Positions 12,834-54,985 of a stretch of 64,000 nt of DNA are shown piece after piece. Under the pieces are notes generated by a model that was not told the DNA's origin, ran no database searches, and worked only from the letters and a program-made list of their open reading frames with translations. The number at the start of each line of letters is the position of its first letter. Position 1 is the first letter of the stretch. The stretch comes from Nitzschia sp. pyKryTriq1. Taxonomy: Eukaryota > Bacillariophyta > Bacillariophyceae > Bacillariales > Bacillariaceae. The stretch is from positions 186,001-250,000 of the forward strand of contig OY101121.1 of NCBI GenBank assembly GCA_956465555.1, given 5' to 3'. The position numbers were made by a program, and so were the translations under genes.

Positions 12834-15800
12834 CTAGGGTGATTCGTAGTCCGAGTCTTCAGGTGGAACTTCTTCGCGATTTTGAATCGGCAGAATTACA
12901 CCACCCCATTCATCCTTGGATCCCCATATTCTCTCCAATTCGCTCTTGAGTGGTTCGGTTCTAAAGCGTAACGGCTTGAAGACAAAGGCATTCGCACCCG
13001 AGTCGTCAAACATCTGCTCGACATCGTTGGCCGACATGCCACAAATCTTGCTTCGCACACCCAGTCTTCGCAACTCGGCAACGGCTTCCGGTCCAATAAG
13101 CTTGGATCCGTCTGTCCCCATGTACATATCTATAAATATGAGATCGAACTCCTTCTCTGCCTTGGCGACACATTCCAAGGCCTCCTCACCGGATCCCGCT
13201 TCTTCAATGGACCATTCTGGGGCAAACCTCTTCACAGAGCGAGTGAACATTTTTCGAAGAATTCTATCATCGTCGACAACCAATACTGACATGACTTGGG
13301 GTAACTCAACAGAGGAGTCGTCCATGTCGGCTAACGATAAAGATGAATCGTTCAGCTTCTTTTTGATAGCCTTCAATCGCTGTCGTGTTGGCTGAGGAAG
13401 AGATGAAGTTCTCACAACAGGCACAGAAGACATGGAACCGCGGCGTTTGGACGGTGAAGAAGATTGAGCACCCTCACGTTGCATGTGGCGCAATGACTCG
13501 ACGATTCCCGAGATAATACCTTTCCCGGTAAGCGCCCACTCTCTGCGGTTCTGTTCCGCATAGTTTAGATATTCATCACTCGATACGCCAAAGACTCCAC
13601 AATCGGCAAGCCTTTTGGCCAAAGGAATAATGTAATTATCAAAAAATTCCAACTCTCCTTGGTACCAGTCCTCAGACGGATCATTGTCACGGCCTTCTAG
13701 ATACGCCTTGTACCTTTCCTCGAACAAACGGCCATTCCATTTCTGTCGCAGAAGCAACACGACAAAGGTGTCGAGTGAGTTTTTAATTGACATTAGGGAG
13801 GAAAACTCCACCAGAATATGTCGAGGTACTTACTCGGTAGATGTGCCAGTGTTGCATTGTATGAGAAACGTCCGACACTTGAATGACGTGCTCCATGACA
13901 ATGGTCGCCTTGCGGCCGACCAAATCTTCCAAATCTTCGTCGCTAGAAGAATCAGAAAACACCTTTTCCCATCGTTCTTTCCGACCCATGACAAGTTCCT
14001 GGTCCATAATATCCGTCGCCATAACAGTATTGACCATCAGTTGACGGAAGCGCCTAAAGTCGTCTTGCGTGGTATAGATGGTAGAACGAAGATTGGCGAA
14101 TCGTTCTTCCATGAGCAGATTCCAGGCCAGATTGATCGAGTGTTGCTCGGCTGGACTTCTGCCGTTGAACTGTACCGCGAGGGGACTCTTTTCCTTGTTC
14201 AGTTGCGAATTGTGAACTCCGGGGTGATCGACATCATGAACAAGAGCGGACAATGCCACCGTGAACTGAGCAAGTGGATCAGACGAAATACCGTAGGTCT
14301 TTTGGTGCAAAGTATACCCATCGTCACTCTCTGATTTCTTTCCATCTCTTCTGGGTACGATCCGTGAAAAAAGTTTTACAACGCTCATTGCTACATGACT
14401 GGAATAATAGAGAGAGAGAGAGAGAGAGAGCGATACTTTGGGTGAGAGAGGAGACAAATGGCGGCTTCGTCCTCCTGATTGGATGCTAGTATCGCAACGT
14501 ACCCAGCATGTTCAAAACTATGAAAAGGGGTGGACGAATATGCTTGCGCAATGGATAGTACATAGTCGTGCAATTCGGATAAAATCATGTCATCGAGCTC
14601 GTAGTCATCATCACATCCAGTCTCCCCATTTTGAGCGTACCAATAAGAATCTTTCAAATCGGGCATCGTAACCGTTTCTTGAATTTCATCTCTTGGACAC
14701 ACGGCGTTGTTCTGCTTCAATAGCTGTTTCCCTAGGAGGTCCAAGGCTTCGTCTTCTCGGGCCAGCAATCCTGACTGACCATCATCATTATCATCATCAT
14801 CATCATTGGCGAGTACCGGTAGTAATAGTCTCGCCCGTTTCACCTCTTTTAAGAGATTTGCCAACTCCATGGTAATCCAATCAACTAGCCTCAAATGTTT
14901 CTCTGGTAAACAAACCGAAATTGTCCTAGTATGCATTCGATCTTTGCTGACCACTGATTCAGCAGAGCTTTGGCTCATGATTGAGAGCAACGAGTTTCTT
15001 CTTTCCTCCCTGGTGGTCTGTAGCCAGTATGTCTTCAGTTCACCTTTGCCTGTTAGTATTATACACACCACGCACCGCAACACCGACAGTCAAACGTATT
15101 AGAAATAAGAGTAAGTAAGGCAGTCATGGTCCTCATCAATGCAAGAAGTTCATTAAGTTCATGATTCATTCATACCTTTGGCAGTGACTTTGTCTTCTCT
15201 AGGTACCAACCAGTGATGCTTTCCGGCCGAGAATATATAGGCCGCCGCCTCGCTCGAAATGTGAATTTTTCCTGCCTTTCCAGTAGATTCCAGACGCGAA
15301 GTAGCGTTCATGGTATCTCCAAACAATTGAAATCTAGCCCGGTCACCTCGTAACACTCCTGCTGTCACTGGACCACTGTGTATCTGTAGCACGCCGTACA
15401 AAAGACTGTGAGTTGACTCTGCCGATGATTGTTCATTCACCGCCCACCCATCACACACCACACACACACACTCCTCTTTACGATTACTACCGCGGTATTA
15501 CTTACTCCGGTCCGCATCGCCAAATCTGCCGTATCCGGGCCCAGTGTCTTTTCGAGTTCCTTGAGCAAGACTGTGAGTCTCGATCGGCAGTGAGAAGCAA
15601 ATCGGCACATGACCAAGGCATGATCCTTTCGTTTGACGGGAAGCCCCGCGACTGCGACATAGCAGTCCCCAATCGTTTCGACTTTAAAGACACCCAGCTG
15701 CCTTGCAATATTGTCAAATTCAAAATAAATCGCCTCCAGTAACATAAACACCGCCACGGGCTCCCTCATACTCGACCAAGCTGTGAAACCCACCAAATCC

Positions 15801-16825
15801 CCAAACATGATGGTCGCTTCTGGAAAAAGGTCGGCAATAATGTTATTCCTGTTGTTGTTGCTGTTGTTCTTGTTCTTCGTGGATGATGATGACACCACGA
15901 CCTCGTGCTGTCTCTCACTTTCCGCCAGAAAATCTCTCATTTGAGATGATGATGATGATGATGATGACGGCGCCCCCCGAGTATTATTCGTAGTGTCTCG
16001 TTTTGTAGTATTGCCATTTTTCAAGCTCTTGTGCTCGTTGTACTGGTTGTGGTTGTGTTTTGGTTCGTCGTCGTCCTCGTCTTGTTGGTCTTGCATTAGT
16101 GATAGTAGCCGTTGATGGACATCTTCGGGGAACAACGAAGTTACCAATGCGTGCGAACGTTCCGTGACTTGTAACAGCCGGATGTGTCGATCTTGTACCA
16201 ATTGATCATAGCGGCGAAACAAATAGTAGGGAAGCAACATGCTGGTCGCATAGCCTACAAGCACCAAAAAAACTAGTACGGAAGACCGCCAAGGCCTTTC
16301 GGTCTCGGAATGATTGATGAAATGATGATCATGATGATCATGATCATGATTCTTCAACGCCGCAAGTAAGAGTGCCACCAAGTAGTAGAACCCTGCACCG
16401 ATTCCAGCGGAACTCAACACGAAGGAAGCGAGAATGGATTCTTGGAGACGCTGCAGCTGAGCGCTTTCCGTGTTGTGGTGAGTATAGGCATCATCCTGCT
16501 TGTTCTTGGTGATATTCTTGATCCTCGCTGATGCTGATGCTGATGCTGTTGTTGTGGCGCCAGTAGCAGTAGCATCATTGATCGGCAGTTTCAGAAGTCT
16601 GGAGGATGGGCCATTATTATTCGTGCGGTTTGAATGTAGTACATTGGACCTTTCCGGTTCTGCCAAACTGTCGCCGATGCCGGACAACGAATCATCATCA
16701 TCAGCATCGGCCTCCCAGGTTTCAGTTTCTGCATCCCCATCATCATCATCAGTGATGATGATGGAAGAGGAATGGTGCTGCGTGATGTGAAGATGCGTAT
16801 TAGAGGTCGTCCATGGTCGTTTGAA

Positions 16826-16886
<61 letters not shown>

Positions 16887-16887
16887 G

Positions 16888-16932
<45 letters not shown>

Positions 16933-16936
16933 CCAT
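12834..16936 (-). CDS. Membrane class III nucleotide cyclase - phosphodiesterase - receiver domain fusion (1219 aa, five exons)
   Basis: Exons 16936-15506, 15383-15176, 15049-14503, 14398-13834 and 13742-12834; introns of 122, 126, 104 and 91 bp all have GT…AG ends and keep the frame. Order: Ser/Asn-repeat N-terminus; two membrane segments (about residues 170-195 and 215-240); class III cyclase (about 370-546) with metal motif MFGDLVGFTAWSS, KVETIGDCYVAVAG and FGDTMNATSRLES; PDEase_I domain (about 690-1000) with FHSFEHAGHVAMSVVKL and HDVDHPGVHN; Ser-rich linker; response-regulator receiver (about 1067-1189) with acidic pocket VVDDDR, phospho-acceptor Asp about 1122 (FIDMY), CGMSAND and FKPLR. 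The protein could make and break a cyclic nucleotide, with receiver control. The Glu in VETIGD favours GTP as substrate. Cyclase-PDE pairs are known in diatoms; the receiver tail is the odd part. Confidence 0.92.
15506..16936 (-). other. Exon 1 of the cyclase-PDE-receiver gene
   Basis: Codes the Ser/Asn tract (from a GCTGTT-type repeat at about 16826-16930), both membrane segments and most of the cyclase domain. It ends at a GTAAGT donor after RTG; the next exon resumes with IHSGPVTAGV, as in the family. Confidence 0.85.
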
Positions 16937-17800
16937 CTTACTTGGTGGTTATGCTGTTGGAGTATTAATGAAAAGGAAAAGGCGCGAAATAATAATCATC
17001 ATCCATCATCGCTCATGCATAATATCGCGGAAGAAGAAAATATTACGTATCATACCGCTAATAAATGTAATGGGTACGAAATTGCATCCAGTAAATCCGG
17101 ATATTATTTCTTGTTTGTCCGAAGAAACGGACTTTAAATTTTTCGGAGTTTCCATCGTTCGCCGAGTGGGTCCCAAGGCATATATAAAAAGTCGGACCAA
17201 CGACCAACAACAGTCAGTCAGTCAGTCGGCCGCTTTTACGAAAAAGTCATTCATATTCCGGGTTTTTCTGATTTTTTTCCACAAAACACGCTGCAACAAC
17301 CACAACAAAAGGCATAACAAAACACAAAACACAAAACATCATCAGCGACCGCATAATAAAACAACCATCATACGAGGAAAGCTCATATGACTGTGGTGTG
17401 TGAATCATCATCTTACGACTATTGAATTGTAATATCCTTGACACACGTTAAGGTACACTGATAGTATACAGAGAGTACAGTATTACCAGTACCGGTACCG
17501 TACTCGTATCTACTATCGGTAGTAGATTAGATACAGAAGAGGCCTCTCGAAGGTATGTCAAGAGTATCCATACTTTTTTGACAAACAGCATATGTATACC
17601 ATACGTAATACCATCACGGGGAATAAACCGAGAACAACCAAACCATACCCGTACTTCGTACAGTCATAGTTTACTTGCTACATTATACAGTACATACGAA
17701 GCGGCATAATGCGAATGGTGCAACTAACTAACTATACAAAGTGAAGTGTACAATCAATACACACATACAAAGAGAAAGAAACATCATCATCATCATCGTC
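16937..17800. promoter_or_regulatory. Divergent intergenic region, cyclase gene / GT17 copy 1
   Basis: About 860 bp between divergent start codons. It holds a (CAGT)n tract near 17211-17228, a run of AACACAAAAC repeats near 17280-17340 and a CCAGTACCGGTACCGTACTCG cluster near 17480. No protein-like frame was seen. Confidence 0.4.
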
Positions 17801-19753
17801 ATGGCAGCAGCGTTCTTATTCCGCGGACCATCACGACGAGGCGGCAGAAGCAGCCGAGATAAAATTGGTTGGGCTCTTTTGATCATACTTCTCGTTCCTT
17901 TGCTGGTTCAAATGTGGAATGGGATGAGTCAAGTGCACCGTCAGATCGATTTTATGACACATTGGGAAGAAGAACAGGCAGATCGACCCAAAAATCATGA
18001 AAATATTAATATTAATGCAACCATCCGCAGCGTGCGAGATGATAGTGCACATACGAATGCTGACCATCACCGTCAGGACAACAAGAAGATCGAGTCGTCG
18101 TCGTCCTCTGCTGGTGCTATGAGGAGCCGCCCCCGTTTCGATGACGAAGCAGCAGCAACAGCAGCAGCAGCAGCTCGACCCAAGGAACAACCAGCGCCAT
18201 GGCCAGTGATAGGACATGATATGCGTAATACCGATACTGGGATCATCAGTAACGTATCGATGACAATAATACCGGAACGTCCTAACAGTCCTGATAGTAC
18301 TATTACAGGTAATACAGCAGCTGCGCCAGAAGTGCCAGTGGTGCTGCTGGTTGACAACTTCTTTTTGCACCAGGTCGAACAGCTGGATGGTATGAAAGAA
18401 TCCTTACGGCTCTTGTTGGGTGCAGCCACTGCGGCTGGACGCCGAGAAGAGGACATGCCACAGGATCAGCACCTTGACGAAGAAGAGGAAAACAAGGCAC
18501 GATGTAAACGGTATGGATTTACATTATCCTCCCCCTTGAAGCGGCGACGCATTTTCTGGGGAAGTCTCATTGCAGATGATAGTTGGCACGTCTTGGGTCT
18601 CGCCAGTATGGAGTATTATGGGTTGTTTGATACGATCGCTTTTGTGGAAAGTAACACGACGCAAAGTTTGTTTCCTCGCTCTCTACGATTTCCTCCTGGA
18701 TCGGCCCGCAAGGCACTCTTGACAAGTCCATTACTCTGGGGAAATACCACGAGGGTGCATGTCGACTATTTTTGGGATGACGAGAATTCTTCCAAGGTGT
18801 ATCACAAAATGGAACTGGCACGAGAGAATGATCAGCGCAATTATATCTTTCAACGATGGAAAAAGAATGGAATGACCGAGAACGATATTGGATTCCTATC
18901 AGATACTGATGAGATTGCCAATCGAGACTTTTTAAAGGCTCTCCAAGTATGCAATGTGCCAGAATTCTTTCCAGCCGCAGAAGAAAGCAGAGGAAATACT
19001 CCATCATCGTCGTCTCTCACACCCGCCCGACCACATGATTGCTTGTCGCCAAAGGTTGGATCATCGAGCATCGTCTTTGAAGGGAGTCCGAAATGTATGC
19101 AAGTACCAAGAAGATGGTATCATCCCGAATTCCTAATTGGAGCTTGCATTCAAGGTATTGGAAATGATACGCTGCGAGACGTGAGTGCTCGTAAGATCAA
19201 ATCGGCAGCCTACCAACGAGTATTCGCGTGGAGGAACCATCATGTTCGACACATTCCGTGGGTTAGTAGTAGTACTACGAATGGTACGACGAATACAACA
19301 ACAACAACAACAACAACGGTTCCACTGGGCCCCTTGTGGGATGCCACCGATATGCGCATGATGGCGGCAGGGGGTCGACGAGCCGAGGGAATTCAGAATG
19401 GCGCGCGTCTTATACCGACTGGTTATCATTTTCACAACTTTTTTGATTCTCTTTCCACCTTGAGAAACAAATATTTCACCTATGGTCATCGGAAAAAAGC
19501 CGCCATGGAAGTGCCTCTGAGCGCCATTCATCCGAATGATGTGGGTTTCATGGTGACGTGTTTGACTGGTCGTAGTCAGCCGAACACTACCACCAGCAAA
19601 TGGCGTCAACCGAAACCATCCGACTGGGATGTGCTGGATCCAGTGTATGCTACCCCTGTGGCATTTCAAAAGGTACCCAACTATGTCGCGTTGCGGCATA
19701 AAGAATTTCAGGACGAATTGGCGGCCGATGAGCTACTGCACCCCCCGCACTAG
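17801..19753 (+). CDS. GT17-family glycosyltransferase, copy 1 (650 aa)
   Basis: I start at ATG 17801 (MAAAFLFRG); the frame is open further upstream only with a GTG. Type II layout: short basic tail, membrane anchor at about 20-42 (ALLIILLVPLLVQMW), low-complexity stem to about 190, then the catalytic part. The motif string RRRIFWGSLIADDSWHVLGLA, DTIAFVESNTTQS, ARENDQRNYIF and IGFLSDTDEI fits family GT17 (beta-1,4-mannosyl-glycoprotein N-acetylglucosaminyltransferase type); DTD is the probable metal/sugar-nucleotide site. GT17 enzymes add bisecting GlcNAc to N-glycans in the Golgi; the product in diatoms is not known to me. The stop lies 65 bp from the end of the convergent TPR gene. Copy 2 is a close relative. 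Confidence 0.85.
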   Translation: MAAAFLFRGPSRRGGRSSRDKIGWALLIILLVPLLVQMWNGMSQVHRQIDFMTHWEEEQADRPKNHENININATIRSVRDDSAHTNADHHRQDNKKIESSSSSAGAMRSRPRFDDEAAATAAAAARPKEQPAPWPVIGHDMRNTDTGIISNVSMTIIPERPNSPDSTITGNTAAAPEVPVVLLVDNFFLHQVEQLDGMKESLRLLLGAATAAGRREEDMPQDQHLDEEEENKARCKRYGFTLSSPLKRRRIFWGSLIADDSWHVLGLASMEYYGLFDTIAFVESNTTQSLFPRSLRFPPGSARKALLTSPLLWGNTTRVHVDYFWDDENSSKVYHKMELARENDQRNYIFQRWKKNGMTENDIGFLSDTDEIANRDFLKALQVCNVPEFFPAAEESRGNTPSSSSLTPARPHDCLSPKVGSSSIVFEGSPKCMQVPRRWYHPEFLIGACIQGIGNDTLRDVSARKIKSAAYQRVFAWRNHHVRHIPWVSSSTTNGTTNTTTTTTTTVPLGPLWDATDMRMMAAGGRRAEGIQNGARLIPTGYHFHNFFDSLSTLRNKYFTYGHRKKAAMEVPLSAIHPNDVGFMVTCLTGRSQPNTTTSKWRQPKPSDWDVLDPVYATPVAFQKVPNYVALRHKEFQDELAADELLHPPH

Positions 19754-27503: not shown

Positions 27504-29117
27504 TCATCCTGTCGCATTATTTATTTCTGAAGGTGGGTGCAGTAGCTCATCGGCCGCCAATTCGTCTTGAAATTCGTGATGCCGCAACGCGACATAGTTG
27601 GGTACCTTTTGAAATGCCACGGGAGTAGCATACAGTGGATGGAGCACATCCCAGTCGGATGGTTTTGGTTGACGCCATTTGCTAGCGGTAGTGTTCGGCT
27701 GACTCTGACCATTCAAACACGTCACCATGAAACCCACGTCATTAGGCTGAATGGTGCTCAAAGGCACTTCCATGGCGGCTTTTTTTCGATGCCCATAGGT
27801 GAAATATTTGTTTCTCAAGGTGGAAAGAGAATCAAAAAAGTTGTGAAAATGATAACCAGTCGGAATCGCATTCGGTATACCCTGACTTGTAGTTCCCAAT
27901 ACTTCTCGTTGAGCCCCCAACATACGCATATCAGTGGCATCCCACAAGGGGCCCAGGGGAATCGTTGTATTCGTACCATTCGATTCCCACGAAACGTGTC
28001 TAACATGTCGTTTTTTCCATGTGACGACTCGTTGGTAGGCTGCCGATTTGATCGTACGATCACTCACGTCTCGCAGCGTATCATTTCCAATACCTTGAAT
28101 GCAAGCTCCAATTACGAATTCTGGATGAAACCATTTCCTTGGTACTTGCATACATTTGGGACTCCCTTCAAAGACGATACACGATGCTGAAATCTTGGGC
28201 GACACGCAATCATGCGGTCGGTCGGGTGGGAGGGATGACTTAGTTTTTCCTCTGCTTTTTGCGGCTGGGGAAAATGCCGGAACGTTGCAGACTTGGAGAG
28301 CCAGTAAAAAGTCTCGAGTGGCAACCTCATCAGTATCTGAGAGGAATCCAACGTCATCCTCGGTCATTCCATTCTCTTTCCATCGTCTAAAGATATAATT
28401 GCGCTGATCATTCTCTCGTGCCAGTTCCATTTTGTGATACACCTTGGAAGAATTCTCGTCATCCCAAAAATAGTCGACATGCACCCTCGTGGTATTTCCC
28501 CAGAGTAATGGACTTGTCAAGAGTGCTTTGCGGGTCGAGCCAGGAGGATATCGTAGGGAGCGAGGAAACAAGCTTTGTGTCGTGTTACTTTCCACAAAAG
28601 CGATCGTATCAAACAACCCATAATACTCCATACTGGCCAGACCCAAGACGTGCCAACTATCATCTGCAATGAGACTTCCCCAGAAAATGCGTCGCCGCTT
28701 CAAGGGGGAGGATAATGTAAATCCATACCGTTTACACCGAGCCTTGTTTTCCTCTTTTTCGTCATCAAAGTGCTGATCCTGTGGCTGTGGCATGTCCTCT
28801 TCTCTGCGGCCCGTGGCTGCTCCCAACAAGAGCCGTAATGATTCCGTCATACCATCCAGCTGTTCGACTTGGTGCACAAAGTCAGTCCGTGATGTACTGT
28901 TCGACGCGGTACCGGTCCCAGCGGTCGGGTTGTTGGGCGGTCGCGATACTTTTATGTGTTCGATGGGTCGAGCCGCTTCTTCTTCCAAACGTGTCATAAA
29001 CTCGACCTGACCATGCACTTGAATCATCCAATTCCACGTTTGAATCAACAAAGGAACGGGAAGCATGATCAAAAGAAAGAAGCTTCGATGGAGGAGGAGT
29101 CCCCGGAACGCTGCCAT
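27504..29117 (-). CDS. GT17-family glycosyltransferase, copy 2 (537 aa)
   Basis: ATG 29117 (MAAFRGLLLH), anchor LLIMLPVPLLIQTW at about 15-29, a short stem, then a catalytic region almost the same as copy 1 (RCKRYGFTLSSPLKRRRIFW, ARENDQRNYIF, VGFLSDTDEV). It lacks most of the low-complexity stem of copy 1, which explains the 113-residue difference. The near identity points to a recent duplication, yet the copies lie 8 kb apart and in opposite directions with retroelement debris in between. It is head-to-head with copy 3. Confidence 0.85.
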   Translation of the reverse strand: MAAFRGLLLHRSFFLLIMLPVPLLIQTWNWMIQVHGQVEFMTRLEEEAARPIEHIKVSRPPNNPTAGTGTASNSTSRTDFVHQVEQLDGMTESLRLLLGAATGRREEDMPQPQDQHFDDEKEENKARCKRYGFTLSSPLKRRRIFWGSLIADDSWHVLGLASMEYYGLFDTIAFVESNTTQSLFPRSLRYPPGSTRKALLTSPLLWGNTTRVHVDYFWDDENSSKVYHKMELARENDQRNYIFRRWKENGMTEDDVGFLSDTDEVATRDFLLALQVCNVPAFSPAAKSRGKTKSSLPPDRPHDCVSPKISASCIVFEGSPKCMQVPRKWFHPEFVIGACIQGIGNDTLRDVSDRTIKSAAYQRVVTWKKRHVRHVSWESNGTNTTIPLGPLWDATDMRMLGAQREVLGTTSQGIPNAIPTGYHFHNFFDSLSTLRNKYFTYGHRKKAAMEVPLSTIQPNDVGFMVTCLNGQSQPNTTASKWRQPKPSDWDVLHPLYATPVAFQKVPNYVALRHHEFQDELAADELLHPPSEINNATG

Positions 29118-29604
29118 GATGTGTGTGTGTGTGTGTGTGTCGTCAAGTCAAGTCAAGTCAAGTCTTTTGCTCTCCCTCGCTGCTCCTGAGATCGGGCCGA
29201 TTTTCCTTATTGGGAGGGCGAGTGAAAGACAGAGATGTGATGTTGCGAAGCAAAAAGCAAAGCAAATGATCCTGAAATACCCCAGTTTACGCGGGTATAT
29301 AGCCGTACTGTAGCCCTACAATGCGATGGGGGTCCACGTGCGATCTAAAAAAATGGGGCATCCGAATGCCGGTCGGATCTAGCGCGCGCCGGGCTTTTGT
29401 CCTGCCGTAAGATGCACGTACATTCCAGTACATGTCGCCGGCCGGGCGCGAAAGATACATAAAACGGCCATTTTTTCTTCATTCGCCGCAAAAATAAAAA
29501 AATAAATCGCGGATGACATGATGATCATGGATTCATTTCTTTATTATTATTTGTTTCCTCCTTTCATTCTCCAATAATAATTGCAAACAAAGACAACTAA
29601 CAGC
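29118..29604. promoter_or_regulatory. Divergent promoter region of GT17 copies 2 and 3
   Basis: 487 bp between start codons. Next to copy 2 lie a (TG)10 tract (29120-29140) and (TCAAG)4 (29141-29163), both in its presumed 5' leader. A CATTCGCCGCAAAAATAAAA word at 29484-29503 resembles CATTCGCCGCATAATAAAAC at 3551-3570. Confidence 0.45.
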
Positions 29605-31194
29605 ATGGCTATTAATTTATTACTGTTTCGACAACAAAGACTTCTTGTTCGGGTCTTGGTGCTGGGATTTTTGCTCCTCTTGGCGGTCCGGACGCGAGAA
29701 CTCACGATTCGAATGGGCGCTATTTCCAAGGCGACAGACCGCAGCCAACAATTAGAAGACTTGCTGCTGTTTGACAATGGACCCACTATGACTGCGGCAA
29801 CGCTGGTGGGAAAGAAAAAGAGAGATCATGTCGAATATACTGCGGATCAGCTCGTAGCCAAAGTAGAAGAGATCGATGGAATGACTGAATCGTTACGAGT
29901 CTTGCTGGGAGCCGCAGTCGCCAGACAGAACGATCCTCAGGTTATTGCTTATGCTAGCAGCAAAAGCAAAAGCAGCAGTATCAGTGGAATTGACATGGCG
30001 ACCGAAGAAGCACGTTGCAAGCGCTTTGGATTTACATTGGCCAACCCCTTTCGACGCCGCCGGATCTTTTGGGGCAGTTTAATTGCAGATGATAGCTGGC
30101 ACGCTTTGGGATTGGCGGCCTGCGAGTTCCATGGTCTCTTTGATACGATTGCTTTTGTGGAAAGTAATACCACACAAAGTAGAACTCCTCGTACCTTGAG
30201 GTTTCCTCCAGATTCTTCTCGCAAGGAGTTATTGACCAGTCCCTTATTATGGGGAAATGCGACTCGAGTCCACGTGGATTATTACGTTGACAAATGGGAG
30301 GATAGCCGCAAAAAGAGTCTTTGGAGAGAAAACGATCAACGAAATCAAATTTTTAAAAGATGGAAGGAGAATGGCATGACGGGAGAGGATATCGGCTTTT
30401 TATCCGATATCGATGAGGTGGCAACTAGGGAATTCTTGCTGGCACTCCAAGTTTGTAACGTGAAGGAATTTACTCCTTCATCGTTGGACCAGAACGGAAA
30501 TCTGCATCATGATTGCATCAGTCCCAAATTATCTTCCTCGACCATTGTCTACGAAGGGAGTCCACAGTGTTTGCAAGTGCCAAGGCGATTGGGGCGGCCG
30601 GATTGGGTCCTTGGAGAATGTATTCAAGATATTGGAGACCCGGCCGAACACCCGCCCGTTCCTCGCACCCAACGAACCGGTGCTCTGGAGCGGATTGCCA
30701 ACTGGACAAAATATGTGGGCACCAAAACTACTACTAGCAACAACAATATTACCATTCAAGTCAATGGTCCCTTGTGGGATGCTACGGACTTTCGAATGAT
30801 CTCTTCACGGCGCGCTGCCGGAACGACGAGTCAGGGCTACCCCCATATGCTACCGACCGCCTATCACTTTCACAATTTCTTTGATTCCTTGCAAACGATG
30901 CGAAACAAATACCAGACCTACGGGCATCCCAAACCAGGTGCCATGGATATGGCTCTAGGAGAGATCCAGAAGAACGATATTGGCTTCATGGTCGATTGTT
31001 TGACCGGTCGATCCACGTCCGGAAGCAAATGGAAACAACCGGGACCCTCGGACTGGTATCTGATGGATCCTATCTATGGGACTCCTGTTGCATTTCAAAA
31101 AGCATCGAACTATGCTCGATTGAGACACGAAGAATTTCAGAAAGAATTGGCGCAAGACGAAGCATTGCATCCGCCGAACATCACGAAGAAGTAA
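29605..31194 (+). CDS. GT17-family glycosyltransferase, copy 3 (529 aa)
   Basis: ATG 29605 (MAINLLLFRQ) is the first true ATG; the frame further up would need TTG. The anchor VRVLVLGFLLLLAV lies at about 14-27. The catalytic core keeps RRRIFWGSLIADDSWHALGLA, DTIAFVESNTTQS, RENDQRNQIFKRW and IGFLSDIDEVATREFL, where DID replaces the DTD of the other copies. All three copies share a VEEIDGMTESLRVLLGAA-like segment before the core. It is clearly more diverged than copies 1 and 2, so it is the older branch. It is divergent from copy 2. Confidence 0.85.
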   Translation: MAINLLLFRQQRLLVRVLVLGFLLLLAVRTRELTIRMGAISKATDRSQQLEDLLLFDNGPTMTAATLVGKKKRDHVEYTADQLVAKVEEIDGMTESLRVLLGAAVARQNDPQVIAYASSKSKSSSISGIDMATEEARCKRFGFTLANPFRRRRIFWGSLIADDSWHALGLAACEFHGLFDTIAFVESNTTQSRTPRTLRFPPDSSRKELLTSPLLWGNATRVHVDYYVDKWEDSRKKSLWRENDQRNQIFKRWKENGMTGEDIGFLSDIDEVATREFLLALQVCNVKEFTPSSLDQNGNLHHDCISPKLSSSTIVYEGSPQCLQVPRRLGRPDWVLGECIQDIGDPAEHPPVPRTQRTGALERIANWTKYVGTKTTTSNNNITIQVNGPLWDATDFRMISSRRAAGTTSQGYPHMLPTAYHFHNFFDSLQTMRNKYQTYGHPKPGAMDMALGEIQKNDIGFMVDCLTGRSTSGSKWKQPGPSDWYLMDPIYGTPVAFQKASNYARLRHEEFQKELAQDEALHPPNITKK

Positions 31195-35160: not shown

Positions 35161-35399
35161 GAACCGTTGACGCAAGTCTCATTTTGATTTTATAGAACGC
35201 GACTAAGAAAATCCACTGCGATTTGCGATGGATACGGGTGGAGGATCGTTCGCTTTTTTGCAAAATCATTGCTGCGTATGCACCTTTTGTGCACATCCCA
35301 CACATAATTTGTGTGATCTTCGGTTGTTGTTGCAGAGAAAAGAACAGCATTTCCAAAAGGAAAACAAAGTGTACTACTACTGCATTCGCATTCACCAGC

Positions 35400-38300
35400 A
35401 TGACTTCGATCATCGCCCCGCTGCCTTGCCGCCCTACATGTGCGTCTGAAGACGCGAAAGTTGATGAGGATGAGCCTCCTAAGAAGAAGGTGGTGATATC
35501 TTTCAGCTCTGGTGCTGCCGCCCCCGCCGCTCGAAGAAAGAGAGGCGACAGCACTGGCTCTCGCTTGCTGCCGCTTGCGATGTTTCTTCTTTCGCTCTCA
35601 CTTCTTGTCAAAGTTTCCGAGGCTCGCCTCTTTTCGACCACCTCCTTGCTCGCAGGGGAAGAACGAAACGAGGAGGAGAACCGTGGTGGCGGTGTTACCG
35701 ACAGGCTGATCGCGCTCTTCTCTGCTGCTGAGAGAATCGAGAGCTCTGCCTCCATCATCAAGAAAGAAGAACAACTCACTGCTGCTGCTTCGTCGTCGAT
35801 GTTGAACGCCTTTTCGCGTCGTCTACGAAAGCTCGGAACTACTGACGAGAGTACTACTGCTATCAGCAACAGTAGCTCCGAAACCCCCCATGCTGCTGCA
35901 AAGGAAGATCTACCCACGGAGGGCGCTGGAATATCCAATCGCTTGTTGGCGCTTGTTTTCGGTGACACCAGCACTGCTGCTGCTGCTGCAAGTCCTTCTG
36001 CCGCGGCTGACGGGCTGAAAGGAGGAGTCTCGAAGAAGAAGAGCATCGTGCTGGACCAGAAAGCACCAGCAGATGCCACAATGGATGTTGTGGATCCTTC
36101 TCCTCCCCCGCGCCCCGCGAATGAATACTCGCAAGGGCTGCGAGCCCTGCAACCACCCGCTACTGCCCCACATTGCACTGGCAAGTCCAAGGGGAAAGGA
36201 GGAAAGTATGGAAAGTATGGAAAGTATGGAGAGACTGGAGATGGATATGTTGGAAAGCATGGAAAGTATGACGATAGCAATGTTGGAAAGTATGGAAAGG
36301 GAGACGATGGGGACGAGGACAGAAGGAGGAGAACCAGGAGAGGAACTGGGAAACTAGGGAAACAGAACCCGCCCTCTGGTGCGGATGAGAAAGAGGACGA
36401 ACTGGGCGATGGAGCCGCTGTTGTTGTTGTTACGCCTGGTCCCGTTGTTCCGTCTTCTGCACTCACCGATAATGAATCATGTTCCCCAGATGGCTGGGTC
36501 TTCCAGTGCGACAAGTATCTGTACGTTTGCGGAACCTTGGAAAAGGAGGACAACACTTGCTACGACGAAAAGAAATTGAAAAAGAGCAAGGATATCACGG
36601 ATGATCAGTGTGCCGCATTAATAAAAGCAGTCGAGGAAGGCGCTGGTTGCAGCGCTTTGTGTCCCAATGGAAAAAATCTGTCCAATTATGGAGTTCAGAA
36701 CTCTTGTGAAGCGACCTACAACAAGTGCGCCTGTGATGAAGCCCCAGACGCCAGCGGGTGCGAGTCGTGCAAGGAAGACGAAGATGACGAAGAGTGCGAG
36801 GAAGAACCCACGCTACCACCTCAATTTGATATAAAGTTGACGTGTCCACGAGAATATCCTGATATCGACCTTGCAGAGTGGTGTGCTCACCCAGAAACTG
36901 ACAGGCGACGATTGACACCTATGTCGTTGCCAGCTTCATCCGATGTCTTGTTAGAAGCTTTCTACTGCGAGAAAGAGGAGACCTTGAGAGAAGAGCATGA
37001 GTGCCTGGGGTGGTTTAAAACTGGACCTTGCAGTGAAGGATTGCCATGGCAATCCTTATTCCCAGGCGCCAAGAATGGGGAAGCATGCTCATTGGAAGAT
37101 GATGAACCTTCTTGTTGCTCGTGCTGTTGCATAGGAGATGGCGCTGGCGGTGGCGTTTGCGTCCCATCGAGTGAATGCCCTCCAACTCCAGCTCCCACGC
37201 CCTTTCCCACGTTGGCTCCGACGCCCGTGCCCACGTTGGCTCCGACGCCCGTGCCCACGCCCGTGCCCACTTTGCCTCCGACGCCCGTGCCCACTTTGCC
37301 TCCGACGCCCGTGCCCACGCCCGTGCCCACTTTGCCTCCAACGCCAGTGCCGACGCCCGTGCCCACTTTGCCTCCAACGCCAGTGCCGACGCCCGTGCCC
37401 ACTTTGCCTCCGACTCCAGAGCCCACTCCGCCTCCGACAACGCCTGATGGCACTCCCCCACCGACGCCCGTGCCCACTTTGCCTCCGACTCCACAGCCCA
37501 CGCCGCCTCCGACAACGCCTGATGGCACTCCCCCACCGACGCCACAGCCCACGTTGCCTCCGACGCCACAGCCCACTCCGCCTCCGACAACGCCTGATGG
37601 CACTCCCCCACCGACGCCACAGCCCACGTTGCCTCCGACGCCACAGCCCACTCCGCCTCCGACAACGCCTGATGGCACTCCCCCACCGACGCGACAGCCC
37701 ACGTTACCTCCGACGTTTGTGGACAGTTGTCCGCGAGACTTTCCTGAAATCGATCTCCACGAAGCTTGTGATGAAGACTCAAGCAGTTCTGAGGAAGAAA
37801 ACCGAAGCAGAAGAGAATTATACCCGATGCCCGATTCAACAGATGATGTCTTGCTCGAAGAGTTTTACTGCGAGGACGAGCACATCCTGAGAGAAAAGCA
37901 TGCGTGCTTGAGGTTTTACAAAACGGGTCCATGTTTCGAAACATTGCCGTGGCAGTCAGAGATCCCAGGCGAAAAGAACGGCCAATCTTGCGACATTGGT
38001 TCTTCTTGTTGTTCATGCTGTTGCAAGGAAGGAAAGTGCGCCCCATCCAGTGAATGCGTTCCAACGCCCCTCCCCACTTTACCACCGACGCCTGCTGCAA
38101 CTCCTCCACCGACGCCAGCGCCCACGTTGCCTCCAACACCAGAGCCCACGTTGCCACCGACGCCAGAGCCTACGTTGCCCCCGAACCCAGAACCCACCCA
38201 GCCTCCGACGCCACAGCCGACGTTGCCTCCGACCCCAGAGCCAACTCAGCCCCCGACGCCACAGCCGACGTTGCCTCCGACCCCAGAGCCAACTCAGCCC

Positions 38301-39434
38301 CCGACGCCAGAGCCCACGTTGCCACCGACCCCAGAGCCGACGTTGCCCCCGAACCCAGAACCCACTCAGCCCCCGACGCCACAGCCGACGTTGCCTCCGA
38401 CCCCAGAGCCAACTCAGCCCCCGACGCCACAGCCGACGTTGCCTCCGACCCCAGAGCCAACTCAGCCCCCGACGCCAGAGCCGACGTTGCCACCGACCCC
38501 AGAGCCGACGTTGCCCCCGAACCCAGAACCCACCCAGCCTCCGACGCCACAGCCGACGCTGCCTCCGACCCCAGAGCCAACTCAGCCCCCGACGCCACAG
38601 CCGACGTTGCCTCCGACGCCACAGCCGACGTTGCCTCCGACCCCAGAGCCAACTCAGCCCCCGACGCCAGAGCCCACGTTGCCACCGACCCCAGAGCCGA
38701 CGTTGCCCCCGAACCCAGAACCCACCCAGCCTCCGACGCCACAGCCGACGTTGCCTCCGACCCCAGAGCCAACTCAGCCCCCGACGCCACAGCCGACGTT
38801 GCCTCCGACCCCAGAGCCAACTCAGCCCCCGACGCCAGAGCCGACGTTGCCACCGACCCCAGAGCCAACTCAGCCCCCGACGCCAGAGCCGACGTTGCCA
38901 CCGACCCCAGAGCCAACTCAGCCCCCGACTCCAGAGCCCACCCAGCCTCCGACCCCAGAGCCGACGTTGCCTCCGACGCCACAGCCCACGCCACAGCCCA
39001 CGCCACAGCCCACGTTGCCTCCGACTCCACAGCCCACTCGGCCTCCGACCCCAGCGCCCACTCGGCCTCCGACTCCACAGCCTACTTCTCCTCCGACGCA
39101 ATGCTTCGATGATGCTACCACCTGGATCTTCAAATGTGGACAAGGTCTCTTTATCTGCGGGCCTACACCTGACACGCTTTTGAATCACGGTAGCACTTCG
39201 ACTACCACATCCCTTTCTTTGGATGGTAGCGATTGCCAAAATTTGATTGCTTCAGCCGAATCGGGAGAGCAGTGCAATAAAAAATGTCCCAACGGCAGCG
39301 AAGTTTCCAATTATGGCGTGTATGGATCGACTTGTCAACCCGACAACACGTTCAAGTGCGAGTGTAATGAGGGATCCTCGCCTAGCGGTACTTGTGTGCA
39401 AAATCTTCAACGAAGAGATTTGTTCAGGTGGTAG
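35400..39434 (+). CDS. Cys-rich and Pro/Thr-repeat wall-type protein (1344 aa)
   Basis: ATG 35400 ([10 protein letters not shown]); the frame is open upstream only via TTG. A membrane or signal segment ([18 protein letters not shown]) lies at about 58-78. Layout: acidic/Ser region with [10 protein letters not shown] repeats (about 265-310); Cys domain A (about 359-457, DGWVFQC…[12 protein letters not shown]); Cys domain B (481-590, [14 protein letters not shown]…SCCSCCC); Pro/Thr linker; a second B (776-887); a long linker built of PTPxPTxP units (888-1233); a second A (1235-1333, [12 protein letters not shown]). RRRL and RRDL sites occur. Alternation of Cys domains and Pro-rich spacers recalls diatom pleuralins and other extracellular matrix proteins. 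I infer secretion to wall or mucilage; no enzyme motif seen. Confidence 0.75.
37179..37720 (+). repeat. Pro/Thr-coding minisatellite, linker 1
   Basis: Units around CCGACGCCCGTGCCCACTTTGC (PTPVPTLP) and a longer unit with ACAACGCCTGATGGCACTCC (TTPDGTPP) that occurs four times between about 37435 and 37690. Confidence 0.85.
38062..39100 (+). repeat. Pro/Thr-coding minisatellite, linker 2, with 168-bp higher-order repeat
   Basis: A basic 24-bp unit codes PTPxPTxP. A rarer PNPEP unit (CCGAACCCAGAACCC) marks a higher-order period: it occurs at 38181, 38349, 38517 and 38709, i.e. 168, 168 and 192 bp apart (seven units, the last interval with one extra). Confidence 0.88.
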
Positions 39435-49762: not shown

Positions 49763-51191
49763 ATGGGAAGAACATCAAATCAATGGGGGGTATGGGACAT
49801 GACCTAGCCAATGAAACTTCGATATCAGTGGTCGTTTGTTCCGTTAGTCTTCCCGACCTCCAGCAAGTTACGGGCGGTGTAGCAGCCCATACAGTACCTT
49901 CAGGTACCCATCATATAATTTGTGTCCACCAATAGATGTGGTCACTCTACCAGCGTATCTCTCGGGCGACCTCTCTGGTAGTAGAGGCTAATGACTTGCC
50001 ATGAAATATAGCGGCAGTAACTTTGTGTTGCCGTGTACGAAAGGTAAAACTCCTACGAAAGCTAGTAGGCAAGCGCCATTACAGAAAGGCTAAAGACTAG
50101 AACACCGCAGCCGGTCATTTTCGTTGCTTATGCGTTTGGTGCCACAGCGGCAGGCGGGGAAGGTGGCTTACCGGCGATCAGGGGGAGCAGGTCCTCGACG
50201 ACTTGTCCGTTAACAAGAAAGTCGAAACGAAGCGGATGGAAGTAATCCAAAGTTTCGGGGCCCGTGTTGATCTGAATACCTCCAAGAACGGCAGTTCCTT
50301 TCTTGAGGCCAGCCTTGCCTGTGTTGATGATGTCTTTCATCAAGAGGTCTTGAGAGTCATAAAGGGCATACGGAAGCTCCAACATCCGGTTCTTAGCATC
50401 CGTCAGACGCTTCCCATGTGGGAGGATCAGTTCCTGAACAGCACCCTGCTGAAAGTCAGTGAACGACTGAATCTTGGTGGAGATTGCTGCGCCTCCCTCG
50501 GTGATACCCTTAAGGTAATTGGAAGCCGCAATGGCACTTCCACAGCAGGTATCGATGAGCTCGATTCCCTTACGCTCGACCTTGCCGATAGTTCCGTCCG
50601 CGGCTACACCGACGTGAGGGCCATAGACGATGAGGCAGTTTCCACCGTCAGGGATGTGAGCCGCCATGGCGCCAAAGCCAGTGTTTCCGCCAAAGGGAAA
50701 GCCGGACAAGCCACCAAGGCTGAAGTTGTCACCATAAACCTTGACGAAATCGTCTTCCAAACGACGAGCAAGCTCATCGCAACAGAGCGAGGTGCACAAC
50801 AACGTGTTGGAGCCGCTGAAGCCCCTATCAGTCAAGGTGCTGACAACCTTCATCTCGAGCTCTCTGTTGGAGAGCGCACCGGGAAAGTACGATTTCACAA
50901 TCTTGTCGACCTTGCTTTTGCTCATTTTGCTGACACTATAAGCGCGGGACGACATGGAACCACCAGTTGAAGCATATGCAGCAACTGAACAAGCTGAGCC
51001 AAGAGACCTCCGCTGCAATATTCGCTGGGACGTTGACAGTGCCACCTTCATCTTCTGTGTTTTCTATGAAATACTTTTTCAATTTGGGGTCTCAGTCTGA
51101 AAGAATCACAGTCCCTCGTCCACTAACTATTGTGGTTGTTCCGTATTTTCCTCAACACAAGAATTCTGCGTCCAAACATTATTTCACCAGC
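49763..51191. repeat. 1429-bp duplicated block with LCIB copy 1
   Basis: Matches 52507-53935 at a constant offset of 2744. I noted only three differences: A/G near 50408, T/C at 51020 and C/T at 51185, so identity is about 99.8%. Confidence 0.9.
50128..51051 (-). CDS. LCIB-family (theta-type) carbonic anhydrase, copy 1 (307 aa)
   Basis: ATG 51051, single exon. The N-terminus (RILQRRSLGSACSVAAYAS…SSRAYSVSKM) is basic and Ser-rich with an R-A-Y-S site, which looks like a mitochondrial presequence and not like the AF-type plastid signal of the neighbours. The core fits the limiting-CO2-inducible LCIB/C family: SYFPGALSNREL, NTLLCTSLCCDELARRL, SLGGLSGFPFGGNTGFGAMAAHIPDGG, IVYGPHVGVAADGTIGKV and DTCCGSAIAASNYL. 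The conserved Cys, Cys and His residues would hold zinc as in beta-type enzymes. The family interconverts CO2 and bicarbonate. It differs from copy 2 by one residue (Ile11 for Met11). Confidence 0.88.
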   Translation of the reverse strand: MKVALSTSQRILQRRSLGSACSVAAYASTGGSMSSRAYSVSKMSKSKVDKIVKSYFPGALSNRELEMKVVSTLTDRGFSGSNTLLCTSLCCDELARRLEDDFVKVYGDNFSLGGLSGFPFGGNTGFGAMAAHIPDGGNCLIVYGPHVGVAADGTIGKVERKGIELIDTCCGSAIAASNYLKGITEGGAAISTKIQSFTDFQQGAVQELILPHGKRLTDAKNRMLELPYALYDSQDLLMKDIINTGKAGLKKGTAVLGGIQINTGPETLDYFHPLRFDFLVNGQVVEDLLPLIAGKPPSPPAAVAPNA

Positions 51192-51363
51192 GCCCATCTC
51201 GGCGCTGCCACACGTTCTTTCCCTTGGTATTACAGTGCCTGGTACCACGTACCAGGTACCGGTAATAGCTGTACAGCAGTGCGCTCGTAGCTCCTCGCGT
51301 CGCGGGGGAGAGAGTGGCTGATGACTGACGACTCAACGCGAACGTCGTCGTCGGCATGAAGAA
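51192..51363. promoter_or_regulatory. Upstream region of LCIB copy 1
   Basis: Differs from copy 2: about 53 bp of extra sequence with CTGGTACCACGTACCAGGTACCGG (about 51239-51262), an inverted GTAC-rich word. In copy 2 only CTGGTACCATCAGGTACCGG remains. The promoters may therefore not act alike. Confidence 0.45.
51356..51363. repeat. Target-site duplication of the MITE (left), ATGAAGAA
   Basis: Repeated at 51636-51643. Unit 2 has a single ATGAAGAA at 54047-54054. Confidence 0.9.
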
Positions 51364-51635
51364 TAGGGTTCTGAAGTTTCTGGTTTTCCGATTTGAGCGG
51401 ATTTTCCTGGAGGAACTTCCCGGAACCTGCGGAAGAACATCCAGAACATCCGGCTTCTACGTGGCAGGACACGTACGGGTCAGTTGGAAAACCCAGACAG
51501 TACCGGAGTAGACGTCTGTCCTGCCACCAGTATTCAGAAGTTACGGGATCTTCCAATAATCGGGCATAGAAACTTCTGGAAACTTCAACCGGAGAACCTG
51601 CGGAGAACATCCTTGCAAGAAACTTCAGAAGCCTA
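51364..51635. mobile_element. 272-bp hAT-type MITE
   Basis: Starts TAGGGTTCTGAAGTTTCT and ends with the inverted form of TAGGCTTCTGAAGTTTCT, an 18-bp terminal repeat with one mismatch. It is flanked by an 8-bp duplication ATGAAGAA. The duplicated unit 2 shows the empty site. TAGGG ends and 8-bp duplications are marks of hAT elements. Internal inverted GTGGCAGGAC/GTCCTGCCAC and two CCTGCGGAGAACATC-like words are present. No coding sequence. Confidence 0.9.
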
Positions 51636-51926
51636 ATGAAGAAAGTTCAAAGTGACGTGTGTCTGACGTGTGCTTTTGTCGCGTGCGCGGCGGGCTTTTG
51701 GTGAATTACGTATTGACGTACTTACGAGTACATGCATGGGACTACACAAAAGGATAAGGAAGTCCATACATACAAATATCCAAAAGCCCCCCAGAGACAG
51801 CAAGCAAGCAACGCAACGCAAGAGGTCTCTGGCGCGCATTGCGAGCTCTGACGTGTGCGCATGCGTGGCTTATTTCGAGCCGTTTTAGCACAGGTGGTGT
51901 ACCGGTATACGGTACTGGTAGGCATC

Positions 51927-52349
51927 GCCCACTGCCGAATGACCCCCTCCGACACATAGGAAGTATTAAAGTCGTCAGGGAGGTCGATGGAGGGAGCGTA
52001 GCCATCCCAAAGATTCCATGGAGTAGGCAGTACATGGGAATGTCGAACCATCGCCCCCGTCGCTTTACATTTCTCTACGATTACCTGGCGCGCAGGTGGG
52101 TCCATAAAGGCCAACTCGAGTGGAACAATCCCATCGCCCAGCACATCTGAACCCACTCGGCCCAGGAGAGGCAAATACGAGCTAGCCGCTACCAATTCTT
52201 CCACATTGGTGGATAAAAAGGCTCCCTTGAGACTGGAGCTACAAACACAGGTAATATCAATCCCCCGGTCGGCCAAGGCCTGTGCCGAGCAAGTCGGCGC
52301 CTCGTCGATTTCTCGTATCAGACCCCTTGTTTGGTCCACCAATGCCGAA
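51927..52349 (-). pseudogene. Truncated copy of the hydrolase exon 2
   Basis: Matches 47289-47708 with a 3-bp insertion (one extra residue, DDFNTSYV for DDFTSYV) and a few changes. The Asp and His motifs (VLGDGIVP, MVRHSHV) remain; the exon with GHSIGG is absent. The frame runs on past the old end into flanking DNA (to 51722) because the join replaced the stop. It is a relic of the tandem duplication and no working hydrolase is expected. Confidence 0.88.
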
Positions 52350-52506
52350 CTTGTGAAGTATTTTGGGGTTGGTAGCAATGTTGTGCACTCCTTGATGTTG
52401 TTGGATGTGGTGCGATGGATAAAAGAACAAGTACTCGTACACGACGACGATGTCCTTTTTTTTCATGCATATTTTACGAGTACCGGTACTCGTACACGAC
52501 GCGACG
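52350..52506. other. Unique bridge in unit 2
   Basis: 157 bp with no counterpart in unit 1. It contains the perfect palindrome ACGAGTACCGGTACTCGT (about 52477-52494) and AAGTACTCGTACACGACGACG before it. It may be filler DNA from the repair that removed 2 kb. Confidence 0.55.
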
Positions 52507-52871
52507 ATGGGAAGAACATCAAATCAATGGGGGGTATGGGACATGACCTAGCCAATGAAACTTCGATATCAGTGGTCGTTTGTTCCGTTAGTCTTCCCGA
52601 CCTCCAGCAAGTTACGGGCGGTGTAGCAGCCCATACAGTACCTTCAGGTACCCATCATATAATTTGTGTCCACCAATAGATGTGGTCACTCTACCAGCGT
52701 ATCTCTCGGGCGACCTCTCTGGTAGTAGAGGCTAATGACTTGCCATGAAATATAGCGGCAGTAACTTTGTGTTGCCGTGTACGAAAGGTAAAACTCCTAC
52801 GAAAGCTAGTAGGCAAGCGCCATTACAGAAAGGCTAAAGACTAGAACACCGCAGCCGGTCATTTTCGTTGC

Positions 52872-53795: not shown

Positions 53796-54187
53796 CTTCT
53801 GTGTTTTCTATGAAATACTTTTTCAATTTGGGGTCTCAGTCTGAAAGAATCACAGTCCCTCGTCCACTAACTATTGTGGTTGTTCCGTATTTTCCTCAAC
53901 ACAAGAATTCTGCGTCCAAACATTATTTTACCAGCCTGGTACCATCAGGTACCGGTAATAGCTGTACAGTGCGGGTAGTAGCTCCTCGCGTCGCGGGGGA
54001 GAGAGTGGCCGATGACTGACGACTCAACGCGAACGTCGTCGTCGGCATGAAGAAAGTTCAAGGTGACGTGTGTCTGACGTGTGCTTTTGTCGCGTGCGCG
54101 GCGGGCTTTTGGTGTATTACGTATTGACGTACTTACGAGTACATGCATGACTACACAAAAGGATAAGTAAGTCCATACATACAAATA

Positions 54188-54598: not shown

Positions 54599-54985
54599 AA
54601 ATATCCAAAAGCCGCCCCCCAGAGACAGCAAGCAAGCAATGCAACGCAAGAGGTCTCTGGCGCGCCTTGCGTGCGAGCTCTGACGTGTGCGTATGCGTGG
54701 CTTATTTCGAGCCGTTTTAGCACAGGTGGTGTACCGGTATACGGTACTGGTAGGCATCGCGATCGTCGGCGACCTCACTGCATCATCATCATCATCATTA
54801 TTGTCGACACGTCCTTCCTGTCGTCGTCTTCTCGCCTTTGAACATCATCATTGGCGACGTAATAGTATATTATCAATAGAAAGGATTCTAACGGCGGAGA
54901 GACCAAAAAGTTTTTCAACTTTCATCTTAATTTATTTTTTTATTTCATAAACACACGTGCAGGAAGCAAGCAAGCAAGCACAAGC

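Follow-up and report, generated by a model that had tools for sequence, protein, structure and literature searches.

A predicted diatom guanylate cyclase/phosphodiesterase with a receiver domain akin to hybrid histidine kinase receivers

Fusions of a guanylate cyclase to a phosphodiesterase (GC/PDE) are known from diatoms, as the initial annotation of this locus had noted, and are described as bifunctional in Seminavis robusta (PMC4726125, PMC8027222). An extracellular stretch between the membrane spans is described for the pheromone-responsive members. In Dictyostelium, a relay from histidine kinases through RdeA to the receiver (REC) of RegA is reported to activate a class I PDE (PMC11988041, PMC3783435), and two RegA-like proteins are reported from Physarum (PMC4758236). 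A second Dictyostelium protein, ACB (AcrA), is a membrane protein with a receiver and a cyclase on one chain; its receiver lies N-terminal to the cyclase, a kinase-like part lies further upstream, and the available text of PMC11988041 mentions no PDE.

Analysis of a window of 64,000 nt from Nitzschia sp. pyKryTriq1 (the whole stretch of DNA studied, in which all positions are given) revealed a minus-strand gene whose five exons join in frame into 1219 amino acids plus a stop, across four GT...AG introns (Table 1). A domain search of the product returned Guanylate_cyc (E 5.4e-42), PDEase_I (aa 722-936, E 1.9e-29) and Response_reg (PF00072, E 3.9e-11), in that order; these matches are not attributable to chance because each exceeds the Pfam curated cut-off. 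Residues expected of a cyclase were present (metal aspartates D380 and D424; also E420, N503, R507 and K546), as were the metal-binding His/Asp set of the PDE (H723, H727, H783, D784 and D905; also E813) and the acidic pocket (D1074-D1076), D1122, S1154 and K1173 of a receiver. Hydropathy analysis identified two membrane spans. The initial annotation had proposed five in-frame exons that encode a pair of membrane spans, a class III cyclase with both metal aspartates, a PDE with HDVDHPG and a complete receiver, and each of these features was recovered; its approximate placements of the phospho-acceptor Asp (about 1122) and the Lys (about 1173) proved exact, and the spliced receiver retains its phospho-acceptor.

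Table 1. Features of the GC/PDE-receiver gene, with positions in the 64,000-nt window.
Feature	Position	Strand	Basis
Whole gene, 5 exons, 1219 aa + stop	12834..16936	-	in-frame join of exons
Exon 1, aa 1-477: N-terminus of low complexity, the two membrane spans, cyclase start	15506..16936	-	gene model, hydropathy
Membrane span 1, aa 168-195 (approximate)	16352..16435	-	hydropathy
Inter-span loop, 22 aa, His/Asp-rich; site of the ectodomain in most sampled paralogs	16286..16351	-	paralog comparison
Membrane span 2, aa 218-240 (approximate)	16217..16285	-	hydropathy
Class III cyclase, aa 371-557, split by introns 1 and 2	15018..15826	-	Pfam, residue check
Intron 1	15384..15505	-	GT...AG; gap at same site in 9/20 paralogs
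Exon 2: cyclase continued	15176..15383	-	gene model
Intron 2	15050..15175	-	GT...AG; junction read through in paralogs
Exon 3: cyclase end, linker, PDE start	14503..15049	-	gene model
Class I PDE, aa 722 to about 985, split by introns 3 and 4	13539..14525	-	Pfam, residue check
Intron 3	14399..14502	-	GT...AG; gap at same site in 12/20 paralogs
Exon 4: PDE core with HDVDHPG	13834..14398	-	gene model
Intron 4	13743..13833	-	GT...AG; junction read through in paralogs
Exon 5, aa 918-1219: PDE C-terminus, 82-aa linker, receiver; one open frame	12834..13742	-	gene model
Receiver, aa 1070-1176	12966..13286	-	Pfam, alignment, AlphaFold2, Foldseek
D1122 codon, predicted phospho-acceptor	13128..13130	-	residue alignment

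To compare gene structures, we used an ungapped scan of 20 paralogs that left their splice signals out. Nine paralogs had a gap of 80-299 bases where intron 1 lies and 12 had a gap of 82-113 bases at the position of intron 3, and the modeled junctions at introns 2 and 4 were continuous in 19/20, with weak local scores at intron 2. The gene model is drawn from genomic sequence, and the locus could in principle be two genes, or a mis-joined model, with the cyclase-PDE and the receiver as separate products; the initial annotation had considered transcripts ending between PDE and receiver. However, two genes are unlikely because the PDE C-terminus and the receiver share one open exon with neither stop nor intron between them, and the intron 4 junction ahead of that exon is one of those read through in the paralogs. 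We therefore give separate products hardly any credence, and the predicted cyclase-PDE and receiver are treated as a single gene.

The genome was searched for related genes by scoring open frames exon by exon. Because only the best candidates were scored, all domain counts are lower bounds. At least 44 clusters of a cyclase and a PDE were found (same strand, less than 3 kb apart; a cluster is not a gene model), and a receiver match was present in this gene only, the other 43 having none. One of these, L039 (C12), was considered as a second copy; its alignment continues beyond the PDE into linker sequence, but it ends in its own stop, without a receiver. In the catalytic columns the protein was 54.5-61.6% identical to 22 paralogous loci; its position within the GC/PDE family was not settled by the tree, where it sits on a long branch. 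A class III cyclase followed by a class I PDE, homologous to the diatom fusions, identifies the predicted product as a membrane-anchored member of that family, plus a receiver. Two N-terminal spans, cyclase and then PDE are also the order described for the S. robusta enzyme; in contrast to that description, the stretch between the spans is only 22 aa and a receiver follows the PDE.

Comparison in full with 20 of the 43 other clusters (the first 20 in list order, not a random sample) revealed that the chain ends soon after the PDE in all 20, unlike in the receiver-bearing protein; we regard this as usual for the family, not as defining it. An ectodomain match was found in 18 of the 20, and in this comparison the receiver-bearing protein lacked the extracellular stretch, having the short loop instead. 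This stretch too is not taken as defining since it is usual but not universal, one paralog (L029) having MHYT in its place. We infer that the ectodomain was lost in the receiver-bearing protein rather than originally absent. As the protein lacks what 18 of 20 paralogs have, a phosphorelay may take the place of extracellular input, not supplement it.

Guanylate cyclases are distinguished from adenylate cyclases by Glu and Cys at two purine-recognizing positions. We take E420 and Q496 to be these positions; E420 fits GTP and Q496 fits neither class, and both residues recur in 23 of 25 relatives; the two remaining sequences do not cover these positions. To our knowledge, the purine-binding Gln is invariant across mammalian PDEs, and its place (QIGFI/QVGFI) is presumably taken here by E947, as aligned by eye. 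Glu occupies this position in 25/25 relatives under the same by-eye placement, the HMMER alignment to PDE4D being gapped there. Because of this apparent Glu where mammalian PDEs have Gln, the specificity, or even the activity, of the predicted PDE is uncertain. The nucleotide of the predicted cyclase and PDE is presumably cGMP.

The receiver was 48-51% identical to the receivers of five hybrid histidine kinases encoded by this genome (L026, L027, L028, L059 and L060) and shared with them an insertion after the phospho-acceptor Asp. The five carry kinase domains ahead of the receiver (L060 and L028 by Pfam, L027 and L059 by an adjoining HATPase match, L026 by eye), whereas Pfam listed neither HisKA nor HATPase in the 1219-aa protein. 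In a tree of 23 rows from the 45 receiver matches, the receiver fell with these kinases in a six-row clade (100/99, with bootstrap not fully settled). One pattern-based scan of prokaryote genomes revealed at least 63 loci with 26-42% identity among the matches listed, of which those over about 109 or more residues reached at most 35%, higher values spanning 53-67 residues; set against 48-51% within the genome, these values led us to reject recent transfer from a sequenced prokaryote. The earlier term "bacterial-type" holds at the level of the domain family, but the closest relatives found are same-genome hybrid kinases, not prokaryotes, and alignment and tree place the receiver as a descendant of hybrid-kinase receivers within this genome. 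Among viral contigs, 12 stretches were matched, and no relative was among them.

AlphaFold2 modeled aa 1063-1198, run with 32 prokaryote receivers, as five alternating strands and helices (mean pLDDT 88.5); prediction of exon 5 without an alignment gave a mean pLDDT of 42.4. Foldseek matches in the PDB included SLN1 receivers complexed with the HPt protein YPD1, among many other receivers. A relict receiver, structurally intact but with no physiological kinase, on an enzyme controlled otherwise, would fit the long receiver branch (0.91) and the finding of one such protein in the genome. Nevertheless, 43 of the 55 columns invariant in the five hybrid-kinase receivers are kept, the acidic triad and the Asp, Ser and Lys among them, and we regard this reading as very improbable.

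Candidate partners are encoded in the genome. At least 38 HATPase matches were found (best 38 of 57 candidates scored), 34 of them with a REC match within 3.5 kb. Among at least 45 receiver matches, 38 were taken as kinase-borne by a HATPase match on their strand no more than 3.5 kb away; the other seven represent six places, of which L055 has a HATPase by Pfam and L026 a kinase by eye, which leaves few receivers apart from a kinase. Because C1 and C3 have near-identical segments, the counts include some kinases two times. A CHASE sensor is present in L060, and in the two clade kinases scanned, HisKA matches fell below the Pfam cut-off of 26.9 bits (24.6 in L060, 15.7 in L028). At least two HPt matches were detected, one in a short frame (Pfam E 9.8e-7) and one in a multi-receiver hybrid. 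Tentatively, much as Dictyostelium kinases mostly converge on RegA, many hybrid kinases may act through one or two HPt proteins on one cyclic-nucleotide enzyme with synthesis and breakdown on its chain.

On balance, we consider the protein probably to be a phosphorelay-controlled GC/PDE without an ectodomain, similar to RegA except that a cyclase shares its chain. Hybrid kinases would sense stimuli, and phosphate would pass from His to Asp to His (HPt) to Asp, ending at D1122, where phosphorylation would shift the net output of the enzyme. In the simplest route, the phosphorylated receiver would stimulate the adjacent PDE, as in RegA, and thereby terminate a local signal whose cyclic nucleotide the protein itself had made. 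We infer the phosphotransfer to D1122, the arm acted on and the direction; the initial annotation had proposed that the receiver sets the balance of synthesis and breakdown, but it may instead act on one arm. The three Pfam domains, the catalytic and receiver residues, the modeled receiver fold, the kinship of the receiver, the genome's kinase and HPt domains and the precedent of RegA support this mechanism. Like RegA, the protein has a receiver and a class I PDE on one chain in a host with many histidine kinases; RegA is cytosolic and cAMP-specific, with an N-terminal receiver and no cyclase described, whereas the diatom receiver is C-terminal and accompanied by a cyclase and membrane spans. 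The likeness to ACB, a membrane protein joining receiver and cyclase, raises the option that the receiver chiefly controls the cyclase, which phosphorylation would activate in the way suggested for ACB, while the PDE brakes constitutively; this is decidedly unlikely, as the receiver precedes the cyclase in ACB but here comes after the PDE and is separated from the cyclase domain by about 500 aa.

The receiver may also take phosphate without allostery, since its nearest relatives are kinase-attached and presumably intermediary, and pseudo-phosphorylation of the intermediary receiver of CckA is reported to cause no structural change (PMC9981736). It would then be a passive acceptor or docking module of the Rec-inter type, recruiting the enzyme to kinases or HPt proteins or acting as a phosphate sink, with no catalytic switch. 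The PDE-receiver linker, 82 aa of which two-thirds are S, T, P, Q, N, E, K, R, D or G, favors this reading, and its length and mostly polar make-up do not speak for tight coupling. However, this receiver is joined to enzymes and not to a kinase, and its 12 altered clade-invariant positions fit a change of partner or role; we judge the passive reading unlikely relative to phosphorelay control of the enzyme. Weighing against phosphorelay control are the same 12 positions, the HisKA matches below cut-off and the apparent Glu at E947.

No cyclase-PDE-receiver protein was found among the titles and abstract openings of the best-ranked matches in the open literature, which suggests that the receiver-bearing form is new, the fusion without a receiver being already known. 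Histidine kinases of diatoms are known from their sequences. No targets of these kinases were named in the literature searched, as far as its available text goes, and a review describes the function of CHASE-kinases of diatoms and other groups as not characterized (PMC6944256). A receiver on a cyclic-nucleotide enzyme is a concrete candidate output for diatom two-component signaling, and the analogy suggests that histidine-kinase sensors may set messenger level by a route like that of slime molds. If so, two-component sensing would be tied to cGMP signaling, which has been linked to mating and to stress in diatoms (PMC8027222, PMC7335047). If many kinases do converge on this protein, it would provide a cytosolic output of diatom two-component signaling and represent an independent origin of the design in which many kinases act on one messenger enzyme.

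Joining the five minus-strand exons of the gene yielded an in-frame product of 1219 aa in which every intron was GT-AG, and a Pfam search of this product returned Guanylate_cyc, PDEase_I and Response_reg, each above cut-off. The phosphodiesterase (PDE) and the receiver (REC) both lie in the single frame of exon 5 (aa 918 to the stop), so their join needs no splice, and exon 1 holds both membrane spans in one frame, which rules out a hidden ectodomain between them. Comparison with 20 fetched paralogous loci, based on gaps by position rather than on paralogue splice signals and with some low local scores, showed the intron 1 site to be gapped by 80-299 bases in nine loci and the intron 3 site by 82-113 bases in 12; at introns 2 and 4 the junction of our model was continuous in 19/20 paralogues, although local scores were weaker for intron 2. 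Taken together, the gene model, the Pfam domains and the shared exon 5 frame confirm at the sequence level the initial annotation of cyclase, PDE and receiver on one chain. The assembly comprises 40.65 Mb in 20 contigs, with the window at C7:186001-250000; eight silicon-transporter matches were identified in it, seven of them with E < 1e-260, compared with none over cut-off in 14 control genomes, which makes a diatom origin almost certain. Other genes of the window are listed in the table; CO2-related functions are grouped at window 50128-58279, with two LCIB-type genes and a bestrophin-like gene.

Features of the window and two related loci elsewhere in the genome
Feature	Position	Strand	Basis or remark
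Cyclase-PDE-receiver gene	window 12834-16936	-	five exons
Loop between its membrane spans	window 16286-16351	-	22 aa, 7 His + 3 Asp
Glyco_transf_17 match	window 17732-19753	+	E 2.1e-7
Gene resembling 17732-19753	window 27504-29147	-	by eye
Gene resembling 17732-19753	window 29581-31194	+	by eye
Long frame, Pro-Thr-rich repeats between cysteine-rich parts	window 35196-39434	+	possibly a cell-wall or secreted protein
LCIB-type carbonic anhydrase family gene	window 50128-51063	-	PF18599, E 4.3e-71
LCIB-type carbonic anhydrase family gene, near-identical neighbour of 50128-51063	window 52872-53807	-	from translation
Bestrophin-like gene	window 57026-58279		PF25539
L028, hybrid histidine kinase	C1:4616609-4620058
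L029, guanylate cyclase-PDE (GC/PDE) paralogue	C1:3232000-3239500		MHYT, PF03707, E 7.3e-19

Genome-wide searches identified at least 102 cyclase, at least 58 PDE and at least 45 REC matches. Cyclase and PDE were clustered without a receiver at 43 places and with one only in the window gene; the other clusters were cyclase-only (21), PDE-only (7) or REC-only (39). All 20 fetched paralogues reach a stop codon 17-166 aa past the PDE end. When the ectodomain of the paralogue L039 was used as query, a match between the spans was found in 18/20 fetched paralogues, L039 itself counted. In the paralogue L032 the match was confined to the surroundings of the second span, with a long inter-span region visible in the frame, and the query did not match L029, which carries an N-terminal MHYT membrane sensor instead of an ectodomain. 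In the window protein the match started only at the second span, with none between the spans. The His/Asp loop found there may be mere low complexity or may sense metal or pH. In a tree with 22 relatives the position of the window protein was not fixed and its branch was long (0.99), so that, as far as one genome can show, the fusion may be old. The diatom GC/PDE fusions and mating-pheromone link named in the initial annotation are published: excerpts of PMC8027222 describe eight S. robusta GC/PDE genes, all sex-pheromone-upregulated, with a layout of small N-terminal intracellular part, extracellular stretch, GC and PDE, and an excerpt of PMC4726125 gives the combination as known to its authors in 2016 only from diatoms. 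A literature search, covering texts in part, found no cyclase-PDE protein with a receiver, which is weak evidence of absence; by this search the GC/PDE fusion itself is already known and the receiver-bearing form would be new.

The receiver is complete in sequence, as first annotated, with D1074-1076, D1122, S1154 and K1173 all present. The structure predicted for aa 1063-1198, with 32 prokaryote receivers in the input, had a mean pLDDT of 88.5 and receiver-like alternating strands and helices, and its Foldseek PDB list mixed CheY-type, OmpR-type and hybrid-kinase receivers, SLN1 bound to YPD1 included. The closest matches in the genome (45-52% identity by search) were L026, L027, L028, a look-alike of L028 on C3, L059 and L060. 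The receivers of L026, L027, L028, L059 and L060 showed 48-51% aligned identity to the window receiver, share with it an insertion after the Asp, and formed one clade with it in a tree of 23 rows (100/99; bootstrap not fully settled). Prokaryote receivers, among the matches listed, reached at most 35% identity over most of the domain and at most 42% over part. The five kin within the genome are hybrid kinases, as judged from Pfam for L060 (CHASE, HATPase and REC, with HisKA under the cut-off) and for the L028 frame, from HATPase matches beside L027 and L059, and from inspection of L026 by eye. The extracellular part of L028 is homologous to that of GC/PDE paralogues (40% identity, E 1.8e-30 versus L040). 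As L028 combines this ectodomain with a receiver of the window clade, sensor part and receiver both seem, from these sequence comparisons, to have passed, in one direction or the other, between the kinase and cyclase-PDE families.

Both cyclase metal aspartates noted initially are present (D380, D424), together with N503, R507 and K546. E420 is the residue usual in guanylate cyclases; at the position of Q496, guanylate cyclases usually carry Cys and adenylate cyclases Asp/Thr. The same Glu and Gln occur in 23/25 relatives, the remaining two not covering these positions. Compared by sequence with solved structures, the cyclase matched adenylate cyclase 9 best, with soluble guanylyl cyclase beta and the ANP receptor close behind. 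For the Seminavis protein, cGMP was argued by Moeys et al. (PMC4726125, in excerpt). The PDE metal-binding set is complete, and the solved chains matched include PDE4 and PDE9. Residue 947 is Glu in the window gene and in 25/25 relatives. Aligned by eye (GE[L/I]xFF versus Q[I/V]GFI), Glu947 falls at the purine-pocket Gln position of other class I PDEs, and Gln stands there in L009, the one canonical PDE of the genome compared by eye; the HMMER alignment to PDE4D is gapped at this position.

At least 38 HATPase matches were identified, 34/38 with a REC match within 3.5 kb, and at least two histidine phosphotransfer (HPt) matches, one in the multi-receiver hybrid L049 and one in L050 (82-aa frame, Pfam E 9.8e-7; apparently stand-alone, by eye). 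Several near-equal-score pairs of cyclase, REC and HATPase matches across C1 and C3 suggest segmental duplication or separated haplotypes. A HATPase match lay within 3.5 kb of 38/45 REC matches, a count that may miss intron-split or divergent receivers. The other seven map to six loci. L026 and L055 are kinases or resemble them; in L057 (by Pfam) and L058 (by eye) the receiver is joined to a LuxR-type DNA-binding part, at a guess of plastid type; the last two are the LRR-REC protein L056 and the window gene. Thus, among the 45 matches, the window gene and L056 alone combine a receiver with something other than a kinase or a LuxR-type regulator.

In Dictyostelium, kinases signal through the HPt protein RdeA to Asp212 of RegA, a class I PDE with a receiver, and activate the PDE (PMC11988041, in excerpt); RegA is termed the sole response regulator in an excerpt of PMC3783435, although the receiver-bearing cyclase ACB is a suggested second target, partly RdeA-independent (PMC11988041, same excerpt). 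Hybrid kinases, HPt and a receiver fused to a class I PDE are alike in kind in this genome, and by this analogy our leading reading is that D1122 would be phosphorylated via the relay and would stimulate the PDE on the same chain. The initial proposal of a phosphorelay setting the balance of synthesis and breakdown is supported in part, with kinases, HPt and phospho-acceptor present, but kinship with kinase receivers counts against PDE switching, because the intermediary receiver of CckA is allosterically silent (PMC9981736, in excerpt), as do the long PDE-receiver linker and the Glu947 read by eye at the usual Gln position. If D1122 phosphorylation does stimulate the PDE, the cyclase of the same chain would be the source of a local cyclic-nucleotide signal.
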